This document shows, in pieces, positions 6,141 through 26,129 of a stretch of DNA of 26,352 nucleotides. The stretch is from the IMG/VR virus record IMGVR_UViG_3300020205_001645, positions 1 to 26,352 of that record, one strand, 5' to 3'. Numbering within the stretch: the stretch's first letter is position 1; the number at the start of each line of letters is the position of its first letter. The DNA comes from a virus. The notes under the pieces were generated by a model. It worked only from the letters and a program-made list of their open reading frames with translations. It had not been told where the DNA came from and did no database searches. Made by a program: the position numbers and the translations under genes.

Positions 6141-7187
6141 ATGGATATCAAAGGAAATCTACAAGCGGCAAGGGCAAGAGCGGCATATCAATCATATGTC
6201 AAGAATCCCGAACCATCGTTTCAAGACACCGTCTACGGGCGGGCGCGTGAGACGGGATGGGCGGCAGGAAATCGTTGGTTGACTATGGTATTTCCAAATC
6301 AACAGGTGCGTGATGCTCTTGGAATGCGTTTTGTTCCAGATGTTGCCCGATTGGCTACTACATGCAAATCGATAAACCTCAACGAACAGACTTGGTATAG
6401 CACCGAGCAAAACTACATCAACGCGGGGCCAACCCGTGTCTTTCCTTACAAAAGAAACACCAACAATGCATCAGGCATCAAGGTGCAATTCAATGTTGGA
6501 ACGGACATGTTTGAAAAAGAGTTCTTTGAGGGATGGTTACGGTATATCCAAGACCCATACACACGGGCATGGAAGTTTTATGACGATTACGCCAAAGACA
6601 GTTTCATATATCTCCTTCTTCTCCCGAATCATGTGCAAAACTTTGCCATGGCTATGGAAGCCATGAAGCAAGGTCAGATAGTTGGATATAAATTTACCGA
6701 TGTGTATCCGTTCTCCTTGAATGTAAACGGTGGGAATCTCAACTATAACAATGTAACCGAACCACTATTCTCGGATATTGGATTCATGTATCACGATATG
6801 ATTCCTCTACAGGAACAGACAATTCGCTCCAGTCGGATTATTCCCACGGTTACCGACACAGGATATCCCGTTATCGAGCGAGATCGATTCAAAGATATCC
6901 TTACGGCAAGCCAAGCGGGGATCGACAAGGCGGTCAATGGATTTGCCCTTGGTACGATTGCGGAACGCGGTGCATTCAATGCCCTCAGACAGCAACAACG
7001 CAGCGTCCTAGAGTCTTATGTCAAGCAACTAGAGGAATATCAGGTAACCGATCTACCGCGAGGTGTGGATGGCAGAGTAGTATATGCCACCCCCCGACAG
7101 GGTGGACTTGACTTGGGTCTGACTCTCTTGTCTCAGACTCAAGGTTTCTTTGGTGCAGGATTCTTTGGAAACGGATTTAATCCATAA
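6141..7187 (+). CDS. 54: Baseplate tail-tube initiator, gp54-like
   Basis: This 348-aa protein fits gp54 (320 aa in T4), which sits on the baseplate hub with gp48 and nucleates the tail tube of gp19. Its centre shows the tube-fold pattern: EKEFFEGWLRYIQDP near residue 120, then FAMAMEAMKQ near 167, GYKFTDVYPFSLNVNGGNLN and a beta strand ending FMYHDMIPL. The C-terminus ends in a Gly/Phe-rich tail (GFFGAGFFGNGFNP). The Shine-Dalgarno is weak (ATAGAAC), so translation may depend on coupling to the previous gene, 18 bases upstream. It is followed by gp26. An alternative is gp48, but the minus-strand gene at 3806 fits that better. Confidence 0.72.
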   Translation: MDIKGNLQAARARAAYQSYVKNPEPSFQDTVYGRARETGWAAGNRWLTMVFPNQQVRDALGMRFVPDVARLATTCKSINLNEQTWYSTEQNYINAGPTRVFPYKRNTNNASGIKVQFNVGTDMFEKEFFEGWLRYIQDPYTRAWKFYDDYAKDSFIYLLLLPNHVQNFAMAMEAMKQGQIVGYKFTDVYPFSLNVNGGNLNYNNVTEPLFSDIGFMYHDMIPLQEQTIRSSRIIPTVTDTGYPVIERDRFKDILTASQAGIDKAVNGFALGTIAERGAFNALRQQQRSVLESYVKQLEEYQVTDLPRGVDGRVVYATPRQGGLDLGLTLLSQTQGFFGAGFFGNGFNP

Positions 7188-7209: not shown

Positions 7210-7917
7210 ATGTCACTCGCAGGACTTATTGCTTCAACCCCCAAGTCACATACAACCCTTCCCATCAGCGGAAAAAAAGTCGAATATCGCCCATTCATCG
7301 TTAAAGAGGAAAAGATTCTTCTTATGGCGGCAGAAAGCAAGGACGAAAAGACTATTAATTCTGCGATCAGAGAAGTCATATCTGCGTGCACAAACGGAAC
7401 CGTAGATGTGTTCAAATTGCCACTTACAGACATGGAGTATCTGTTTCTTCAACTCCGTAGCCAATCTGTAGGCGAGACTGCAAAGCCAAGCATCAAGTGC
7501 AACAAGTGTGGTTTGCCAACTGAGGTTGAAATTAATCTTAAGGAAATCCAACCAACCAACGATCCAACTCATAAGAAGATCATTCCCATCGTTGGGGACA
7601 TCAGCGTAGTAATGCGATATCCAACTGTTGATGACTTGAAGGAAATTGAAGACCAACCCGATATCGAAAAGGCTTTCATAATTTTAATCAAGTCCATCGA
7701 CAAGGTATATCAGGGAGAGAAGATATTCAATGCATCTGAGATGGATCCAAATGAAGTTCGTTCGTTCATCGAAGAGATGACACAGGAACAGTTCAAGAAA
7801 CTTTTTGCATTCATCGAAACGATGCCCAAGTTGGAGAAAAAGGTAAACTTCAATTGCAAGCATTGCAATCATGAAAATGATATCGTTTTGAGAGGAATCA
7901 CGAGTTTTTTCTCCTAG
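7210..7917 (+). CDS. 26: Baseplate hub / tail assembly protein, gp26-like (zero-frame product)
   Basis: This 235-aa protein matches the T4 gp26 family (T4 gp26 is 208 aa), needed for hub assembly. N-terminal features are LPISGKKVEYRPFIVKEEK and KLPLTDMEYLFLQLR. Two CxxC pairs, C97/C100 (CNKC) and C216/C219 (CKHC), probably bind one zinc ion. The protein ends RGITSFFS. A strong TAGGAGAT ribosome site lies 7 bases before the ATG. The last codons form a T TTT TTC slippery heptamer, so part of the translation probably continues in the -1 frame (see the fusion entry). It lies directly before the tape measure, the usual place for tail assembly chaperones. Confidence 0.83.
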   Translation: MSLAGLIASTPKSHTTLPISGKKVEYRPFIVKEEKILLMAAESKDEKTINSAIREVISACTNGTVDVFKLPLTDMEYLFLQLRSQSVGETAKPSIKCNKCGLPTEVEINLKEIQPTNDPTHKKIIPIVGDISVVMRYPTVDDLKEIEDQPDIEKAFIILIKSIDKVYQGEKIFNASEMDPNEVRSFIEEMTQEQFKKLFAFIETMPKLEKKVNFNCKHCNHENDIVLRGITSFFS

Positions 7918-8105
7918 CCTCCACCCATGATAATCTTTTCAACATGCTCTCTGTGAACTTTGCGATGATGCAAAACTTCAACTACACGCTAGTTGATCTA
8001 GAGAGCATGATGCCATGGGAGCGGAGGGTTTATATTGATTTGTTGATGCAGCATTTGAAAGAAGAAAAGGAACGAATGGAATCTCTGAAGAGTCAACGGG
8101 GATAA
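7210..8105 (+). CDS. gp26 -1 frameshift extension product (298 aa), candidate tail assembly chaperone
   Basis: If ribosomes slip back one base on T TTT TTC (7905-7911), gp26 residues 1-234 are joined to 64 more residues encoded from 7911 to 8102, with the stop at 8103. The extension begins LLASTHDNLFNM and contains NFNYTLVDLESMMPWERRVY and a charged helix (HLKEEKERMESLKSQRG). The -1 frame is open from the slip site without a stop, and the internal ATG at 7944 has no Shine-Dalgarno, so frameshifting explains expression better than reinitiation. The arrangement (short zero-frame product, rarer extended product, tape measure 12 bases later) is that of lambda G/GT. Frameshifting itself is inferred, not shown. 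Confidence 0.7.
7905..7911 (+). promoter_or_regulatory. Slippery heptamer T TTT TTC for -1 frameshifting
   Basis: In the gp26 frame the codons are AGT TTT TTC TCC TAG, so T-TTT-TTC fits the X-XXY-YYZ pattern exactly, two codons before the gp26 stop. Both tRNAs can re-pair after a one-base slip back, and the new frame is open for 64 codons. Confidence 0.75.
7943..8009 (+). repeat. Inverted repeat around the internal ATG of the gp26 extension
   Basis: CATGCTCTC (7943-7951) and GAGAGCATG (8001-8009) are perfectly complementary over 9 bases, with a 49-base loop. The left arm contains the internal ATG (7944). In mRNA the stem would begin 31 bases after the slippery site. It may hide the internal start codon or act as a distant frameshift stimulator; chance is also possible. 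Confidence 0.4.
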
Positions 8106-18043: not shown

Positions 18044-18622
18044 ATGGCTAAAAAACGAGAAGGCAATCACTATATCGACAATGAACGGTTTTTAGAAGAA
18101 CTTGTTATACACAAGACTGCTGTTACAAAAGCCAAGAAGGAAGGCATTAAGCCTCCAGGTGCAACCAACTATATTGGACAATGTTTTCTTGATATTGCAA
18201 ACAATCTGGCGAAGAAGCCTAACTTTGCAAACTACACCTACAAGGACGAAATGGTGTCGGATTCAGTTGAGAATTGCATCATGTATGTAACCAACTTTGA
18301 TCCCAAAAAGTCTAGGAACCCATTCGCATTTTTCACACAGATCATCTATTATGCTTTTCTTCGTAGAATTCAAAAAGAGAAAAAGCAAATGTATATCAAG
18401 ATGAAATGCTTCGAGCAAAATGATCCAACAGGTCGTTTTCGAAATTGGATGGAGGGCGAACACTTGAAGTACGGGGAAGCGGGTCAAAGTCCATTCTCCG
18501 ATTTTATTGCGGAGAACAGCCCAACATCAGAATCACTCAAACCCAAGAAAAAGAAAAAGCGCAAAAGCAAAGGCTCAGGCGATGAAAAAACAAACTTGGA
18601 CGATGTGATGGAAGACAAATGA
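18044..18622 (+). CDS. 55: Late sigma factor, gp55-like
   Basis: This 192-aa protein (T4 gp55 is 185 aa) replaces the host sigma factor for late promoters. It shares the T4 layout: NHYIDNERFLEELVIHKTAV, CFLDIANNLAKKPNFANYTY, MVSDSVENCIMYVTNFDPKK and the region-2-like NPFAFFTQIIYYAFLRRIQK with EKKQ after it. The C-terminus differs from T4: PFSDFIAENSP is followed by a Lys-rich run (SLKPKKKKKRKSKGSGDEK) and ends DVMEDK, with no exact SLDFLYE-type clamp motif. The ATG follows CGGAG. It overlaps gp47 as ATGA. The TAAATA boxes in the window are its expected targets. Confidence 0.92.
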   Translation: MAKKREGNHYIDNERFLEELVIHKTAVTKAKKEGIKPPGATNYIGQCFLDIANNLAKKPNFANYTYKDEMVSDSVENCIMYVTNFDPKKSRNPFAFFTQIIYYAFLRRIQKEKKQMYIKMKCFEQNDPTGRFRNWMEGEHLKYGEAGQSPFSDFIAENSPTSESLKPKKKKKRKSKGSGDEKTNLDDVMEDK

Positions 18623-19662
18623 TTGCAATTATCAACGACACACATTTTGGTGCCCGAAACGACAACCCGATCTTTCTAGAACATTTCATGGAGTTTTGGG
18701 AACAAGAGTTTTTCCCGATTCTAGAAGATAGGGGGATCAAGCGAATCATACACTTGGGTGATTTTTTAGATCGCCGCAAGTTTGTGAATTTTCACACCCT
18801 GAGTCAAGTTCGGACTAGGTTCCTAGAACCCATCAAACAAATGGGCATTCAGATGGATATCACTCTAGGCAATCATGATGTGTTTTTTAAGAACACCAAC
18901 CGACTCAATTCTGTGAATGAACTGTTCTCGGGATATTCAAATATCCACATCCACGAAAATCCTGTTGTATTGGATTTGGGGGAGATGAACATTGGTATGG
19001 TTCCTTGGATTACAAAGGACAATGCTGATGAATGTCTGAAGTTCATCGCGTCCGCGCCCGTGCGCGTACTTATGGGACACTTTGAGGTGCGTGGGTATGA
19101 AGTGCTTCGGGGTGTTGAACACCATGATGGTATAGATCCAAATTTGTTTAGCAGTTATGAATCTGTGTACAGCGGTCACTTTCATTGTCGCCACAGCAGA
19201 GCGAATATTCATTATTTGGGCACACAGTATCAAATGACTTTCGGCGACTTGAACGAGCGCAAAGGATTTAGCATCCTACACCCACGCACGGGAGAGATGG
19301 AGTTTATCGAAAACCCAAAGCAGATATTTCAGCAGATCGACTACGACGATACAAAACAGGACTACAATATTCTTAACTGTAAGCAGTATAAGAACACCTT
19401 TGTCCGCATCTTGGTCAAGAATAAGACCCGACCAATCATGTTTGACAACCTGTTGGATCGACTGAACGATGCTCCAGCACACTCGGTCAGTATCACAGAT
19501 CAGACCGAAAAGGAAGTAAACAAGAACGATATGGTTGTAGATGTGTCAAAAGACACACTTAGTCTAATTTGCGATGAAATTGACACTATACAGGGATTGC
19601 AAGATCCTGTACGACTAAAGACTCTGATTCGGGAAATTTATAGCGAATCTTTGCAGGGCTAA
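18619..19662 (+). CDS. 47: Recombination nuclease subunit gp47 (Mre11/SbcD-like)
   Basis: This 347-aa protein (T4 gp47 is 339 aa) is the metallophosphatase subunit that works with gp46 to resect DNA ends. Metal-binding motifs are in order: NDTHFG (D7, H9), LGDFLDRR (D48), LGNHDVFF (84-87), MGHFEVRG and SGHFHCRH. The C-terminal part (about 250-347) fits the gp46-binding and capping region. It overlaps gp55 by ATGA and is therefore co-transcribed with it. Unlike T4, where genes 47 and 46 lie next to each other in one direction, gp46 here is 2.3 kb away on the opposite strand. The stop codon TAA is part of a late promoter box. Confidence 0.95.
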   Translation: MIAIINDTHFGARNDNPIFLEHFMEFWEQEFFPILEDRGIKRIIHLGDFLDRRKFVNFHTLSQVRTRFLEPIKQMGIQMDITLGNHDVFFKNTNRLNSVNELFSGYSNIHIHENPVVLDLGEMNIGMVPWITKDNADECLKFIASAPVRVLMGHFEVRGYEVLRGVEHHDGIDPNLFSSYESVYSGHFHCRHSRANIHYLGTQYQMTFGDLNERKGFSILHPRTGEMEFIENPKQIFQQIDYDDTKQDYNILNCKQYKNTFVRILVKNKTRPIMFDNLLDRLNDAPAHSVSITDQTEKEVNKNDMVVDVSKDTLSLICDEIDTIQGLQDPVRLKTLIREIYSESLQG

Positions 19663-19672: not shown

Positions 19673-19891
19673 ATGGCCAAGCACTTCAACACGCTGATTC
19701 AAGACATCAAGGAATGGAGTACTGTTCCTACAAGTGGTAGTGGAGACACCACCACAATTATGTCTCTTCGGACGGGTAAGGCAGACAAGGCAAAGAAGCC
19801 TACTGTAAGACAATTGAAGAACAAGTCTCCCTCCCGTGTTGAAATTGGAAAACTAAAAAACGCAAATTGGGGCATGGGGGGTATCACATGA
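19673..19891 (+). CDS. Small basic unknown protein before the pseudoprotease gene
   Basis: This 72-aa protein (MAKHFNTLIQDIKEW...) is Lys-rich in its second half (GKADKAKKPTVRQLKNKSPS) and ends with Gly-rich WGMGGIT. I recognise no family. It begins 7 bases after a late promoter box with no Shine-Dalgarno, and its stop overlaps the ATG of the next gene as ATGA. Position suggests a late protein coupled to the large virion-like protein downstream, such as a small structural partner or chaperone; that is inference from position only. Confidence 0.65.
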   Translation: MAKHFNTLIQDIKEWSTVPTSGSGDTTTIMSLRTGKADKAKKPTVRQLKNKSPSRVEIGKLKNANWGMGGIT

Positions 19892-21624
19892 TATTTGGAT
19901 ATCAAAAGAAGGCGACTGTAATTGCCGCCAACAATTTGCTTGGGTACGACAACTTCGTCACAAGTGACTTTTCCAAACAGTTTATCCACGGAGAAAACTT
20001 GGAAATTTCATACCCACCTGACCATATTTTGGCAGGAAACAAATACACACACGATTATGCTGGCATAGGCAACACCATATTCGGCAATTATATCGCAGAG
20101 CAATCTAGAGAGACTAAAGTCTTTGAGGAAAACTCAGTCTTAAGTGTCAATAAGGATTTTGTATACCCATATCAAAGCAATTTTCTAATACAGTACTTTC
20201 CCTCGGTGAGCAGCGGATTACGCCCGATTACAGACAGAGGAGTCACCGCCGACATGGGCGTTGACTCATTCATTATCAAAGGATCGATCATCAGCGGAAT
20301 CTCAAGTGGTGCAAAGAGGTTTTATGCAGGCCCGTTCAAGGGATTTACCAAAGAGATTGAGTGTATTTGTGAAGGGGCAACCGCAGTAAACTTGATGGAC
20401 GGAACAGACTGTAAAGGCAATCTAAAGGGTGGATATTACGAAGAGGGATATACCCCCTACAAGCAAGACATGTTCAAGTATGCGGGTGAACCAAAGATGC
20501 GAGTTGATTTTGTTCAACCTATCAACCCCACCTTCATGAAAGATACACCTTACGAGGGGCTGAACTACTCTTGGCTGAATATTAGAGACCGAGCCAAAAG
20601 ACCGATTCCATATAGCATGTTTACCGATAGTGGCAAAGGGGTTTCAGCAGTATTGATAACACCAAGACATGCTATTGTGTCGGCAGAAGCAGACATCGAT
20701 GTTTCCAATCTTAAGTTTTATTCAGAGGCATCGGGACTAACAACGGCTACCGCTTCTACAAGCGTTTCAACATTCAAACAGATGTGGGATGCAATCGGAT
20801 TCATCGATGAAAACTCATCGTCCGATGTTCTTCTGAAGTACCAAGAACTGTCAAGTTACTTTAACGATATCAAGATCATCACCTTTGCACAGGCGTTGTC
20901 CAATGACATTACGCCCATCGGAATTATTGATATCAACAGCACAGACCCAATTTTCTTTGCTTTGGCTATAGGTCAAGAGGCGCGGGGTCACCACGGGATG
21001 TTCTGCCCTCCGATAAACAAGACTGATTTCAACCCATCTGTTTTGCCAAGATTGACATTCAAACAGACGAATAGTTGCTCACACATACCCACTTCGGCTT
21101 CCCATGAATTGGTTGGGACAGATGGAACCGAAAGAACAATAGCAGTTGTGCGGGGTGATGTTGGAAGTCCTGTAATCACTTACTATCGAGATAATCCTGT
21201 GTTTGTTGGATTGGTTTCGGGAGCAGGATACACATACTATTCCAATCCACTTTCGGATATTTCGTTTGCTCTACTTCGAGGGGTTGGTATTGGATCATCA
21301 AAACAAATACAATTCCCATGGGGACAATCTTGGTCTCCACTATCTTTTTTAAATGCGTACTTAAGAATAGTAGGACAGGGTGTGGTATCGGTTGTTCCTG
21401 TTAGATCAGAAAACGACACAAATGAGACATATCCATATCCTGCCGTTGAATTTGGAACCGTATCACCAACAACCTCACGCAAAAGAATGGTTGTTAATAA
21501 GGATCAGGGAGTTGGTGTAAAGTTCAGCGAAAGTGGTGGCGAGAAGTTCACAAATAGACCGTACTTACAAACTGAAACAACAAACGAAATTGGAACAACC
21601 GTGTCTGTGGACTTTACTGTATAG
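19888..21624 (+). CDS. Large virion-like protein with an inactivated trypsin-like domain
   Basis: The likely start is the ATG at 19888, in an ATGA overlap and 7 bases after a GGGGGG run, giving 578 aa; a TTG at 19867 would add 7 residues. The N-terminal half (MIFGYQKKATVIAANNLLGY...) is not recognised. From about 250 to 470 it follows a chymotrypsin-fold layout: SAVLITPRHAIVSAEADID corresponds to the strand ending in the catalytic-His motif, and RGDVGSPVITYY to GDSGGP. The expected His is E267 and the expected Ser is V425, so peptidase activity is very unlikely. The Tyr/Asn/Ser-rich composition and late promoter suggest a structural or host-binding protein. It separates gp47 from gp46. The fold is inferred from motifs. 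Confidence 0.65.
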   Translation: MIFGYQKKATVIAANNLLGYDNFVTSDFSKQFIHGENLEISYPPDHILAGNKYTHDYAGIGNTIFGNYIAEQSRETKVFEENSVLSVNKDFVYPYQSNFLIQYFPSVSSGLRPITDRGVTADMGVDSFIIKGSIISGISSGAKRFYAGPFKGFTKEIECICEGATAVNLMDGTDCKGNLKGGYYEEGYTPYKQDMFKYAGEPKMRVDFVQPINPTFMKDTPYEGLNYSWLNIRDRAKRPIPYSMFTDSGKGVSAVLITPRHAIVSAEADIDVSNLKFYSEASGLTTATASTSVSTFKQMWDAIGFIDENSSSDVLLKYQELSSYFNDIKIITFAQALSNDITPIGIIDINSTDPIFFALAIGQEARGHHGMFCPPINKTDFNPSVLPRLTFKQTNSCSHIPTSASHELVGTDGTERTIAVVRGDVGSPVITYYRDNPVFVGLVSGAGYTYYSNPLSDISFALLRGVGIGSSKQIQFPWGQSWSPLSFLNAYLRIVGQGVVSVVPVRSENDTNETYPYPAVEFGTVSPTTSRKRMVVNKDQGVGVKFSESGGEKFTNRPYLQTETTNEIGTTVSVDFTV

Positions 21625-21972: not shown

Positions 21973-23670
21973 TCAGAACGCCCTGCTAAAGTTTCCACGC
22001 TTTACGAACTGAATGCAGCGGTCAAACTTATCCTGAAGTATTTCCTTAGGCTTATGGCTAATGACGAAGGTGTTTGTTCCCGCCTTCCCATTAGCCATAA
22101 TGTCGAGGAATGCTTCTGTTGCCTGATCATCCAAACTACCATCCAAGATCTCGTCAAGGATCAGTAGATTGGTTGTGATAGAATTTTTCGTGGATGCAAT
22201 TGCTCTCCATGCGAAAAGCAATGCCAAATCAATTTTCTTCTTTTCGCCTTCGCTGAACGATGGATATGTAAACACATCACGGTGTCGTGATTTGATCGTC
22301 TCGTTGAACTCTTCATCGAGATTGAAATTGACAAAGAAGTTCATCTGTGCGAGATACTTGTTGATTGTGTCATTGATTACAGGAATATAGTTTTTGATGA
22401 TTCGGCTTTTGATACCCGAATCCTTTAGTAGAGTTCCCGCCAACGACAGATAGTGTTGTTCTTCGATCAAATCTCTTTTTGCTTCTACTGCCTCGTCTTC
22501 GGATGTAATAGCAACCAAAAGATCATCGGCAACATTGCCAACCTTTGAGGTTTTCTTCGATGTGATCGTTTTTATGTGCTTTTCGGTAGATTCAATCTCG
22601 TTCGTCTTTTTCATTATCAGCGTGTTTGATGTATTGATCTGCCGCATCACTTCTTGAATCTCTGTCAATCGATTCTCGGTAATGTCGATTTCTTTTACAA
22701 GATCCGCAACGGCCTTATCCATTTCACCAATCTTGTTCTTGCCCCGTTCGATTGCGCTCTGTTTAAAATCATCGGCAATTTTTTGTGAGCATGTTGGACA
22801 ACTATCGTTCTTCTCGTAGAACAAAATCTCTTTTCCGAGAGACTGAACCTTCTTCTGAATCTGAGACTTTAGTTGACCATATTTCTCATGGGTAGTTGCT
22901 ATCTTATCACTATCAGAGATCGTTTCGGTAAACTCCGATATATTGGCGATTGCTTGCTTTATATCTTCTTTTGCTGCTTCGATTGTCTTATTAGCAGCAT
23001 CAATTTGTTCTAATTCCCACGCTTCGTCGATGTCGCTGCGCTTCTTCTCGTCCTCGCACATTCGCTTTAGAGTGGAGACACGCTCACGCGCAAGCACTAG
23101 AGCAGATTCTGCATGCTGCAATTCTTCTTTATTGCTGCTGATTCTTTCTCTTAGGTGTATGTTCATAGACGAGAACACACCAATATCAAGAATGGTTTCA
23201 ACAACAGCCCTTCGTTCCGCTGCCGTAAGTCGCATGAAAGGAACATAGTTTGCAGATCCAAGGATCACAACTTGACAAAATGATTTGTAGTTCATGCCGA
23301 GGATTGATTCCTCAAGCATTTTCTGCCCGTCTTTTGACTTTGAATCCTGATCTAGTTGCTTATCATCTTTCCAAATTTCAAAGACTTTGGGTGCATGACC
23401 GCGAATTATCTTATAGTCTGACTTTCCATCCGAGAACTCAATCTCAACGATACAGTCCTTCTCGTTTACTGAGGAGACTAACTGAGGGAGATTAACACTT
23501 CGATATGGCTTGTTAAAAAGGACAAAAGTAAGAGCATCTAAAAGAGTACTCTTACCAGCCCCGTTTTCCCCCAAAATGAGGGTGGTTTCAGTCTTATCGA
23601 ATTGAATGTCCGTGAAGGTGTTTCCCGTGCTGAGAAAGTTCTTCCAACGGATCTTCTTGAACTTGATCAT
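21973..23670 (-). CDS. 46: Recombination nuclease subunit gp46 (Rad50/SbcC-like)
   Basis: This 565-aa ATPase (T4 gp46 is 560 aa) partners gp47 in DNA end resection. Motifs: Walker A GENGAGKST at 34-42, Q-loop region near 130 (YKSFCQVVILGSANYVPFMR), two coiled-coil arms (about 170-285 and 300-385), the zinc hook CPTC at 291-294 between them, the signature FSEGEKKKIDLALLFAWR and Walker B NLLILDEILDGSLD, then the H-loop VISHKP. A perfect-consensus sigma70 promoter lies 33 bases upstream, so it is transcribed early on its own and not with gp47. It converges on the Sm-like gene with no terminator visible. Confidence 0.96.
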   Translation of the reverse strand: MIKFKKIRWKNFLSTGNTFTDIQFDKTETTLILGENGAGKSTLLDALTFVLFNKPYRSVNLPQLVSSVNEKDCIVEIEFSDGKSDYKIIRGHAPKVFEIWKDDKQLDQDSKSKDGQKMLEESILGMNYKSFCQVVILGSANYVPFMRLTAAERRAVVETILDIGVFSSMNIHLRERISSNKEELQHAESALVLARERVSTLKRMCEDEKKRSDIDEAWELEQIDAANKTIEAAKEDIKQAIANISEFTETISDSDKIATTHEKYGQLKSQIQKKVQSLGKEILFYEKNDSCPTCSQKIADDFKQSAIERGKNKIGEMDKAVADLVKEIDITENRLTEIQEVMRQINTSNTLIMKKTNEIESTEKHIKTITSKKTSKVGNVADDLLVAITSEDEAVEAKRDLIEEQHYLSLAGTLLKDSGIKSRIIKNYIPVINDTINKYLAQMNFFVNFNLDEEFNETIKSRHRDVFTYPSFSEGEKKKIDLALLFAWRAIASTKNSITTNLLILDEILDGSLDDQATEAFLDIMANGKAGTNTFVISHKPKEILQDKFDRCIQFVKRGNFSRAF

Positions 23671-23867: not shown

Positions 23868-23874
23868 TATTTAG
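23868..23874 (-). promoter_or_regulatory. Late promoter box CTAAATA overlapping the stop of the 752-aa gene
   Basis: The minus strand reads CCTAAATACAG. Its TAA (23873-23871) is the stop codon of the 752-aa gene. It lies 21 bases before the ATG of the 37-aa membrane peptide, with AAAGGAG between. Confidence 0.7.
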
Positions 23875-26129
23875 GTTGTGAAATATTGGTTGGGCAAGTG
23901 CCGCAATGGTTCTCTATTTGATTGTGTTCGCAATGCAGCAACGGATACCAATGGATTTAGAATAGTATCTGCTGATTGAATGAATGTTGCATATGACTTA
24001 TTTCTGATGATGGGGCTATAAACCCCTTTCCAGTCTTTTGTCATCTCATTTTGATTTCTTGTTACAATGAATCTGTTACCATTGGATCTTCTGTAATTGG
24101 TGACATCGTGTATAAGAACAAAGTTACTTGTTGGCTCACCACCATTGAGTTGCAATGTAAACCCGCTTGCCATACAAGCAGAAGGGGTGCCTGTGCCTGG
24201 CCCGTTACAATCATTCGACGCACAGAAACATCCAACACCTGGCCCACCAGTTCCACTCACAGCAGTTCCAAATTCAAGATTAGTTATACATTGGCAACTG
24301 TTGCTAACTGTCACCTGTCGAACACAATCGTTTCCACATGCATAGTCACCAATCATTGAGTCTACATTGATAGAAGTTGGAACACAGTCATCCGCACACT
24401 CTGCAAATTTATTGCAGGGCCCCTCTGTGTTTGGTTCACCAATTATTGTGATCGGGGGGCAATCAAAACACCCATCTCCTTCTGGATAGTCACATTCAAT
24501 AAATTTAATACAACAACATGTGGAAGGATTCCCACCACCACTTCCAAATGGATTCTCTGGATCGGTTTTACATGGATTTGGACAGTTACAATTGCTTGTA
24601 ACAGGTTCATCGTTGACAAATCCCCAAGACTGTTTGTTGTATACCGCATCACTCGCAGTCGTATTTGTTGATTGCTGTGATCGAGTTGTAAATTGATCTC
24701 CAACTGGATTATTCGCACCACGAATCCAACCATTGGATGGTGCTTTTGCTACATGCACGGTTGTTCCATGACCTGCCAAGTTCACACTTTCGCGAATTTC
24801 ATTTAGATATGCGACTGTGTTTTTTCCACCAAAGCGAAGCAGATCTGTTTTTATACAAGGATCTGTGTACCCAATTGCGGAAGGGGTATACCCATCAGAA
24901 TATGTCCCACCATACAACAGAGAAGAAAAAAAGTTTCTTGCTCTGATCTGTGCATCATATCCTGTAGCACCTATACCAATATCTGCTGTACATGCAATGT
25001 CAATAAGCGAAGGCATTGGATCATAAAATACAAATCCATTAACGAAACCATCAACTGCTCCCTGAATCATGTCGTGTCGGAATGTTATGTCGGGATAGTA
25101 TCCCTCTGCTGCATTTGCAGTTGTTCCTTGATACGAAGTTCCATCGATGTTGTAATACCCACCCTCGCGTTTATATTCAGTTACATTGTATATTGATTCG
25201 GGATCGTCAAATCGATTCAATCTGCGCGAGGGGTACATCGGTGATATTAGCGCATTGCTTTTAACCAAAAGACTTTGTGCTTTGCTCCACGACAGTTGAC
25301 AGACTCTTCTATTTCTTTTGTAGTTTGCGTTTGGATTGTATCCATACTCATAGAAGGGAAGTCCATCTGTGTGGGGTACACGAATATCGGGACATATCCA
25401 ATCGACAGCACAATTGTCAAATACCACCTTCTGCACACCCGCTGTCACGATTTGTTCGTAGAAGGATTGGAGAGTCGTGGGTACATTGTCCCAATCATAA
25501 AACGGTGACGCGCTACTTCCAGTTGGATGCTGTGGATCCCACCAAGATGGCGAGGTGTAATTACCGTTGTTGGTAAGAGATGGATCCCAAATTGGAGATT
25601 GACCAATTGGTGGTGCATATGCCATCTGATATGGAAGATGCGGCAGACCTGCAATCGCCCAATCTATGTTTGGGTATTGGTTTTTTAGGACTCCAAAGAC
25701 TGCTTTGATTCCATTCACATATTGTGTTGTGTTTGTACCTGCAACTGTTCCCGTGGATCCTCTAGTTGGGCCTAGAATTCCGTCTCCAACAATGTTGACC
25801 CAATCGGGGGAACCCCTCAAGTCAATTAGACCAAGACCTGTACTGGATGGGGTGACAGGGAAGCGGCTCTGTACATAGCCCGTAATCGCCGCTGTAGCCC
25901 CCAGAGAGTGTGTGTAGTAAGTTAGCCCCTTGTCAGACACAAACCACACAGAGAGGCTTCCTGTGGCTCCCTCGCTGCCTGAGATGGTGTTGAAATAAGC
26001 ATCTACATGCTGCCCGTAAATACCATAGTCATTTTGGGGGAGCGAAAAGGTAACGCCGCCCGAGTTTACTTTACTTTGGGAGAACGAATACGCATGGTTG
26101 TAGAGTTGATAGTAGGATTTATTTGACAT
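23871..26129 (-). CDS. 752-aa late protein with a 20-cysteine segment, possible adhesin or glycosidase-like virion protein
   Basis: This large protein has a late promoter 24 bases before its ATG. Residues about 90-420 have the feel of a TIM-barrel glycosidase: NYPNIDWAIAG style strands, VQKVVFDNCAVDWICPD near 235, and FDDPESIYNVTEYKREGGYY; this is weak inference. Residues 514-652 hold 20 cysteines in 139 residues (SNCNCPNPC, TCCCIKFIECDY, CNKFAECADDC, CQC, CFCASNDC), separated by Gly/Pro-rich turns, a disulfide- or metal-rich module. The final 100 residues are ordinary. No signal peptide is visible. Tyr, Asn, Gly and Ser richness suggests a tail fibre or other exposed virion protein. No family recognised. 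Confidence 0.65.
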   Translation of the reverse strand: MSNKSYYQLYNHAYSFSQSKVNSGGVTFSLPQNDYGIYGQHVDAYFNTISGSEGATGSLSVWFVSDKGLTYYTHSLGATAAITGYVQSRFPVTPSSTGLGLIDLRGSPDWVNIVGDGILGPTRGSTGTVAGTNTTQYVNGIKAVFGVLKNQYPNIDWAIAGLPHLPYQMAYAPPIGQSPIWDPSLTNNGNYTSPSWWDPQHPTGSSASPFYDWDNVPTTLQSFYEQIVTAGVQKVVFDNCAVDWICPDIRVPHTDGLPFYEYGYNPNANYKRNRRVCQLSWSKAQSLLVKSNALISPMYPSRRLNRFDDPESIYNVTEYKREGGYYNIDGTSYQGTTANAAEGYYPDITFRHDMIQGAVDGFVNGFVFYDPMPSLIDIACTADIGIGATGYDAQIRARNFFSSLLYGGTYSDGYTPSAIGYTDPCIKTDLLRFGGKNTVAYLNEIRESVNLAGHGTTVHVAKAPSNGWIRGANNPVGDQFTTRSQQSTNTTASDAVYNKQSWGFVNDEPVTSNCNCPNPCKTDPENPFGSGGGNPSTCCCIKFIECDYPEGDGCFDCPPITIIGEPNTEGPCNKFAECADDCVPTSINVDSMIGDYACGNDCVRQVTVSNSCQCITNLEFGTAVSGTGGPGVGCFCASNDCNGPGTGTPSACMASGFTLQLNGGEPTSNFVLIHDVTNYRRSNGNRFIVTRNQNEMTKDWKGVYSPIIRNKSYATFIQSADTILNPLVSVAALRTQSNREPLRHLPNQYFTT

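Follow-up and report, generated by a model that had tools for sequence, protein, structure and literature searches.

A gp26-like gene with a run of six T's near its end raises the question of whether one gene can give two forms of a tail chaperone by programmed −1 frameshifting. The gene lies in a 26,352-nt stretch of viral DNA (IMG/VR record IMGVR_UViG_3300020205_001645, positions 1 to 26,352; hereafter, the window), and the features of the locus are collected in Table 1. On the sequence evidence described below, −1 slippage at the six T's almost certainly gives this uncultured T4-like phage a second gp26 of greater length.

Table 1. Features of the gp26 locus in the window, with the evidence for each.
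Feature	Position	Strand	Evidence and remarks
Tail-tube/tube-initiator-like ORF (gp54-type), upstream of gp26	6141..7187	+	phrog_3629 tail tube E=6.9e-8, phrog_45 E=2e-5
gp26-like ORF, putative short tail assembly chaperone (TAC-N)	7210..7917	+	235 aa; Pfam T4_baseplate PF12322, phrog_150, AlphaFold2
Internal Shine-Dalgarno (SD)-like sequence, GAGAGGA region, 5′ to the slip site	7890..7897	+	anti-SD energy −6.0 kcal/mol; SD-type motif
Slippery heptamer T TTT TTC	7905..7911	+	sequence read; position common to 99/104 gp26 clusters
−1 frame extension (TAC-C; gp51-like C-terminal domain), 64 aa	7911..8105	+	phrog_634, phrog_150 C-terminus, dN/dS proxy
0-frame TAG stop, end of the short form	7915..7917	+	sequence read
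Tape-measure-like ORF, 897 aa	8117..10810	+	position, long hydrophobic middle, relatives' lengths, L026 homologue

The gp26-like ORF matched the T4_baseplate family over its full length in a Pfam profile search (PF12322, E=3.4e-60, 2-218/219), and phrog_150 in a PHROG profile search (E=7.9e-60). By these matches the protein is a clear homologue of T4 gp26; together with the phrog_634 match of the extension (see below), they bear out the T4-like assignment made by an earlier sequence-only reading of this DNA. The AlphaFold2 model was confident (pLDDT 90) and matched viral gp26 models strongly in the fold comparison. A search of the PDB with the same model returned nothing significant, with the HK97 tail assembly chaperone 2ob9 matched weakly (E=2.0, prob 0.35, TMt 0.46). 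The gene order with a gp54-type ORF upstream of gp26 is the same in Mosig and KVP40, and the 26 kb record carries other T4-type genes (gp4-, gp2-, gp5-, gp48-, gp32-, gp55-, gp46/47- and UvsY-like). The gp47-like (SbcD; 18619-19662, +) and gp46-like (SbcC; 21973-23670, −) ORFs lie on opposite strands with other ORFs between them, and two long ORFs gave no Pfam or PHROG match (19867-21624, +, 585 aa; 23874-26129, −, 752 aa). A nucleotide search returned no close relative of the window among named phages.

The ORF downstream of gp26, with its hydrophobic centre, differs in length among relatives (475 to 978 aa). Its homologue in L026 matches tape-measure PHROGs (E=7.7e-10) and the window's own ORF does so weakly (E=0.15), thus we call it tape-measure-like, mainly on the basis of its relatives. 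In three loci (L040 1206-3809, L181 2186-4015, and L119 3411-5564), the ORF in this position contains endolysin-, peptidase- or transglycosylase-like domains. The gp26 cassette sits directly upstream of the tape-measure-like ORF with its heptamer in phase, which is the G/GT-like (TAC-N/TAC-NC) layout that the sequence-only reading had recognized.

The 3′ end of the gp26 frame reads ACG AGT TTT TTC TCC TAG. As first noticed in the sequence-only reading, T TTT TTC is an exact heptamer in X XXY YYZ phase, as needed for tandem −1 slippage. From 7911, the −1 frame translates as LLASTHDNLFNMLSVNFAMMQNFNYTLVDLESMMPWERRVYIDLLMQHLKEEKERMESLKSQRG, 64 codons open from the slip site to a TAA stop at 8103-8105, as that reading had also stated; the distance from this stop to the next ATG (8117) is 11 nt, and not the 12 bases first given. 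When the segment is shuffled under a first-order Markov model, an open frame of 64 codons arises by chance in about 1.5% of cases; by itself the open frame is thus weak evidence, and the strong evidence comes from conservation.

We therefore considered gp26 loci drawn from IMG/VR and from named phages, 175 in total, grouped in 104 clusters at 70% identity. The heptamer was present at the homologous place in 170/175 loci and 99/104 clusters, with the −1 frame open every time, as the sequence-only reading had predicted for relatives. The variants among the 99 clusters were T TTT TTC (63), T TTT TTT (31), and T TTT TTA (5), and in 98 of the 98 testable clusters the −1 extension was complete, with a length of 55-75 aa. 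The place of the heptamer is kept even where the 0-frame stop has shifted (L026, L040, L048, L075, and Mosig). Named carriers include S-PM2, S-WAM1, S-CAM1, P-HM2, S-PRM1, BUCT-ZZ01, Mosig, and Melnitz, as well as KVP40, ValKK3, Ah1, Moby, Atu_ph04, ORM_20, and SRB7757.

Some gp26 homologues end differently. In three Ackermannviridae loci (L176 2741, L177 2795, and L178 2738; Ds9CZ, MDA2066, and Matapan) the gene ends GA(A/G) ATT TTC ATT TAA, with no U6 heptamer yet with a conserved −1 open frame, and two of the three have no ATG near the stop; another slip motif or coupling may operate here. In Vibrio phage K483 (L174 2669) the end is CTT TTC AAG TAATGG, without the heptamer and with a −1 frame ATG that overlaps the stop, and translational coupling probably takes the place of frameshifting.

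The extension also bears the marks of a coding sequence. The dN/dS proxy between the window and its relatives was 0.03-0.22 in the −1 frame and at least 0.75 in the other two frames, which argues for strong purifying selection on the extension in the −1 frame only; conservation and dN/dS together rule out a chance open frame as its explanation. The extension matched phrog_634, the 'baseplate hub assembly catalyst' of the gp51 family (E=4.8e-20), and the C-terminus of phrog_150, and an HMM built from the extensions matched the gp51 C-termini of Aes012, T4, and Acj61.

This homology brings up the first alternative, namely that the extension is a separate small protein, a free gp51, started within the −1 frame, for instance at ATG 7944 by translational coupling. 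Indeed, a separate 'gp51' is annotated in S-PM2, P-HM2, Mosig, and Melnitz and is frequent in GenBank cyanophage records, and ATG 7944, the earliest in the frame, is conserved across the window's clade. However, the first −1 frame ATG wanders from codon 1 to codon 32 past the slip site among the clusters and is absent in one of them. The mean SD energy of the earliest possible start is 0.06 kcal/mol, versus −5.7 for gp26 starts, and a value of −5 or lower is reached by 2% of the first possible extension starts versus 74% of gp26 starts. The sequence-only reading held that ATG 7944 was the sole internal ATG and had no ribosome site; the latter agrees with these energies for first possible starts, whereas the former does not stand, since more in-frame ATGs follow. 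Moreover, purifying selection in the −1 frame extends to the 11 codons that precede ATG 7944; their conservation at the protein level is not required of a product that begins at this ATG, and a free gp51 leaves the conserved phase of the heptamer unexplained. The pattern named in advance as contrary to frameshifting, a lost heptamer with a downstream ORF keeping its own start and ribosome site, was absent among the 99 frameshift-type clusters. A free gp51 was thus rejected, as it has neither a conserved start nor an SD sequence, and we judge it very unlikely.

T4 itself serves as a natural control, and it also speaks against a free gp51, since it encodes the domain as a gp26-type fusion: in T4 gp51, the extension comes after a PF12322 domain that is complete (E=3.9e-52). 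T4 gp26 ends GAG TTC TTT GAG, with Phe-Phe kept and the heptamer lost, and the two-gene arrangement is shared by Aes012 and Acj61. Two genes thus replace the frameshift, and the T4 lineage encodes its short and long forms as genes 26 and 51, respectively. Cyanophage gp51 was described as about 20% of the T4 length, without the first ~200 residues (Sullivan et al. 2010, PMC3037559), a truncated look that the frameshift would explain. GenBank records of cyanophages, among them KU686210 and KU686193, often leave the extension without annotation or name it as a separate gp51, endolysin or hypothetical protein.

A second alternative is that the −1 shift arises by transcriptional rather than ribosomal slippage. 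In AT-rich genomes, slippage of RNA polymerase can be promoted by T runs, and the six-T run could be read in this way. On the other hand, the codon phase of the heptamer is strict, with TTT, TTC or TTA as third codon, and a conserved SD-like element lies upstream at translational spacing; both indicate the ribosome, and transcriptional slippage appears extremely improbable.

As for this element, a 2014 study in E. coli defined experimentally the position of stimulatory SD-type motifs, 6-17 nt upstream (PMC4066793), and the motif of the window lies within this range. By the same criteria, an SD-like motif is present in 73/99 clusters versus 9.5% of background positions. A GGAGG/GAGGG-type sequence is conserved in the family, ending about 10 nt 5′ of the heptamer, and the family mean anti-SD energy was −6.68 kcal/mol versus −4.99 under synonymous codon resampling (z −12.7). 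Among eight control segments, seven had |z| ≤1.5, and the eighth (offset 150) was weaker than expected (z 3.8). Within the window's clade the codons at the site are AGA GGA, AAG GGG, AGG GGG, CGG GGG, and GGA GGA: the amino acids differ and the SD character is the same. We found no prior description of this conserved element in the literature covered, Vladimirov et al. 2022 itself lying outside that coverage, and it may be new. It is a directly testable candidate stimulator.

Downstream of the slip site, no hairpin was found in the window (dG −0.5, p=0.985), and a downstream hairpin was rejected as part of its signal. In the −20..+60 fold of the window the T-run itself pairs with GAGAGGAA, which we do not regard as a stimulator. 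Across the family, downstream structure was in excess of synonymous expectation (mean z −1.15; control segments, −0.16 to −0.36), and 26/98 relatives had a hairpin at p≤0.05, including S-PM2, L033, L044, L059, L067, S-PRM1, and others. In L086, L067, L059, L044, and L182, strong hairpins of 8-14 bp, differing in sequence, lie within the coding extension just past the heptamer; the S-PM2 hairpin just downstream of the heptamer is GTTCTATAATAATctcgaaaATTATTATAGAAC. These 8-14 bp hairpins are likely lineage-specific stimulators.

Lastly, codon usage was considered as the origin of the T-run. Although Phe is encoded by TTT in only 68% of cases, the first Phe is TTT in 99/99 clusters, and the codon before it ends in T in 99/99 as well. 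Given codon usage, log10 P is about −24 for the preceding T and about −21 for the first TTT with clusters taken as independent, values that are overstated and indicative only, since the clusters are related. Codon usage cannot explain the conserved heptamer. That the T-run merely encodes a conserved gp26 Phe-Phe, with no slippage, is vanishingly improbable: the pair is invariant in 56 aligned gp26 proteins and kept in T4, but the codon statistics and the T4 control, in which a separate gp51 gene goes with Phe-Phe and no heptamer, rule it out, and five clusters keep the heptamer with Leu (TTA) as the second residue.

The programmed −1 frameshift is thus supported by the heptamer in 99/104 clusters and by −1 coding selection. 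The slip-site sequence, its phase and conservation, selection in the −1 frame, gp51 homology, and the fused counterpart in T4 were all observed, and as a whole they are very probably best explained by a frameshifted tail chaperone gp26. The lambda gpG/gpGT heptamer differs from T TTT TTC. The abstract of Vladimirov and colleagues reportedly names T4 genes 26 and 51 and describes frameshifting as conserved in several T4-like groups. A 2016 review (PMC5009743) still excepted T4 from G-T frameshifting. The study by Vladimirov, Gautam & Davidson (2022, Virology 566:9-15, pmid 34826709), presented as having identified the tail assembly chaperone genes of T4-like phages, is cited in PMC10885494 for T4-like phages in which a short gene occurs together with a fused long one, and in PMC12846349 for slippery poly-T sites within the TAC-N genes of T4-like phages. 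As far as these citations and the abstract tell, frameshifting in several T4-like groups and the two-gene alternative were already known, contrary to what the sequence-only reading assumed, and the window is a well-supported further case. According to the same sources, it has in common with T4-like TAC-N/TAC-NC (gp26/gp51) the gene family (PF12322 plus the gp51 C-domain), the place before the tape measure, and the poly-T slip site. T4 has two genes and a lost heptamer, whereas the window, in common with cyanophages, KVP40, and others, has a single gene with frameshifting.

The layout is that of lambda, where a −1 frameshift takes place at the 3′ end of the chaperone ORF, immediately ahead of the tape measure gene (Xu, Hendrix & Duda 2004; PMC5009743). 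The TAC of phage Adele (Pakpunavirus/Andersonviridae, PMC12846349) follows the same logic, with poly-T slippage, a −1 frame open for more than 200 bp, and a misannotated downstream ORF, but it has a GTTTTT motif and belongs to a different phage family. E. coli dnaX/IS911-type signals (PMC4066793) share an SD-like element placed 6-17 nt before the heptamer; they have an A-run instead of a U-run, and their downstream stem-loop is found in some gp26 relatives and not in the window.

By analogy with these systems, gp26 would act as a tail assembly chaperone of the phage. Most ribosomes would end at TAG 7915 and release the 235-aa short form, and a fraction would move back by one base at T TTT TTC, probably aided by pairing of the SD-like sequence with 16S rRNA, giving a long form of 298 aa with the 64-aa C-terminal domain. 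As in lambda G/GT, the role of the short form may be to coat the tape measure protein and that of the long form to bring in tail-tube subunits, and neither form would remain part of the virion. More broadly, we somewhat favor the idea that gp26 outside the T4 subfamily contains a frameshift cassette of two or three parts, in which the SD-like element ~10 nt upstream and the U6 heptamer, joined in some lineages by a stem-loop, set the short-to-long ratio, and which was dismantled once the long form became gene 51 in the T4 lineage.

This uncultured lineage supports the view of frameshifting as the common route to two chaperone forms in T4-like phages outside the T4 subfamily, and many of the 'gp51' or 'hypothetical' proteins in GenBank are probably wrongly annotated fragments of a single long protein.
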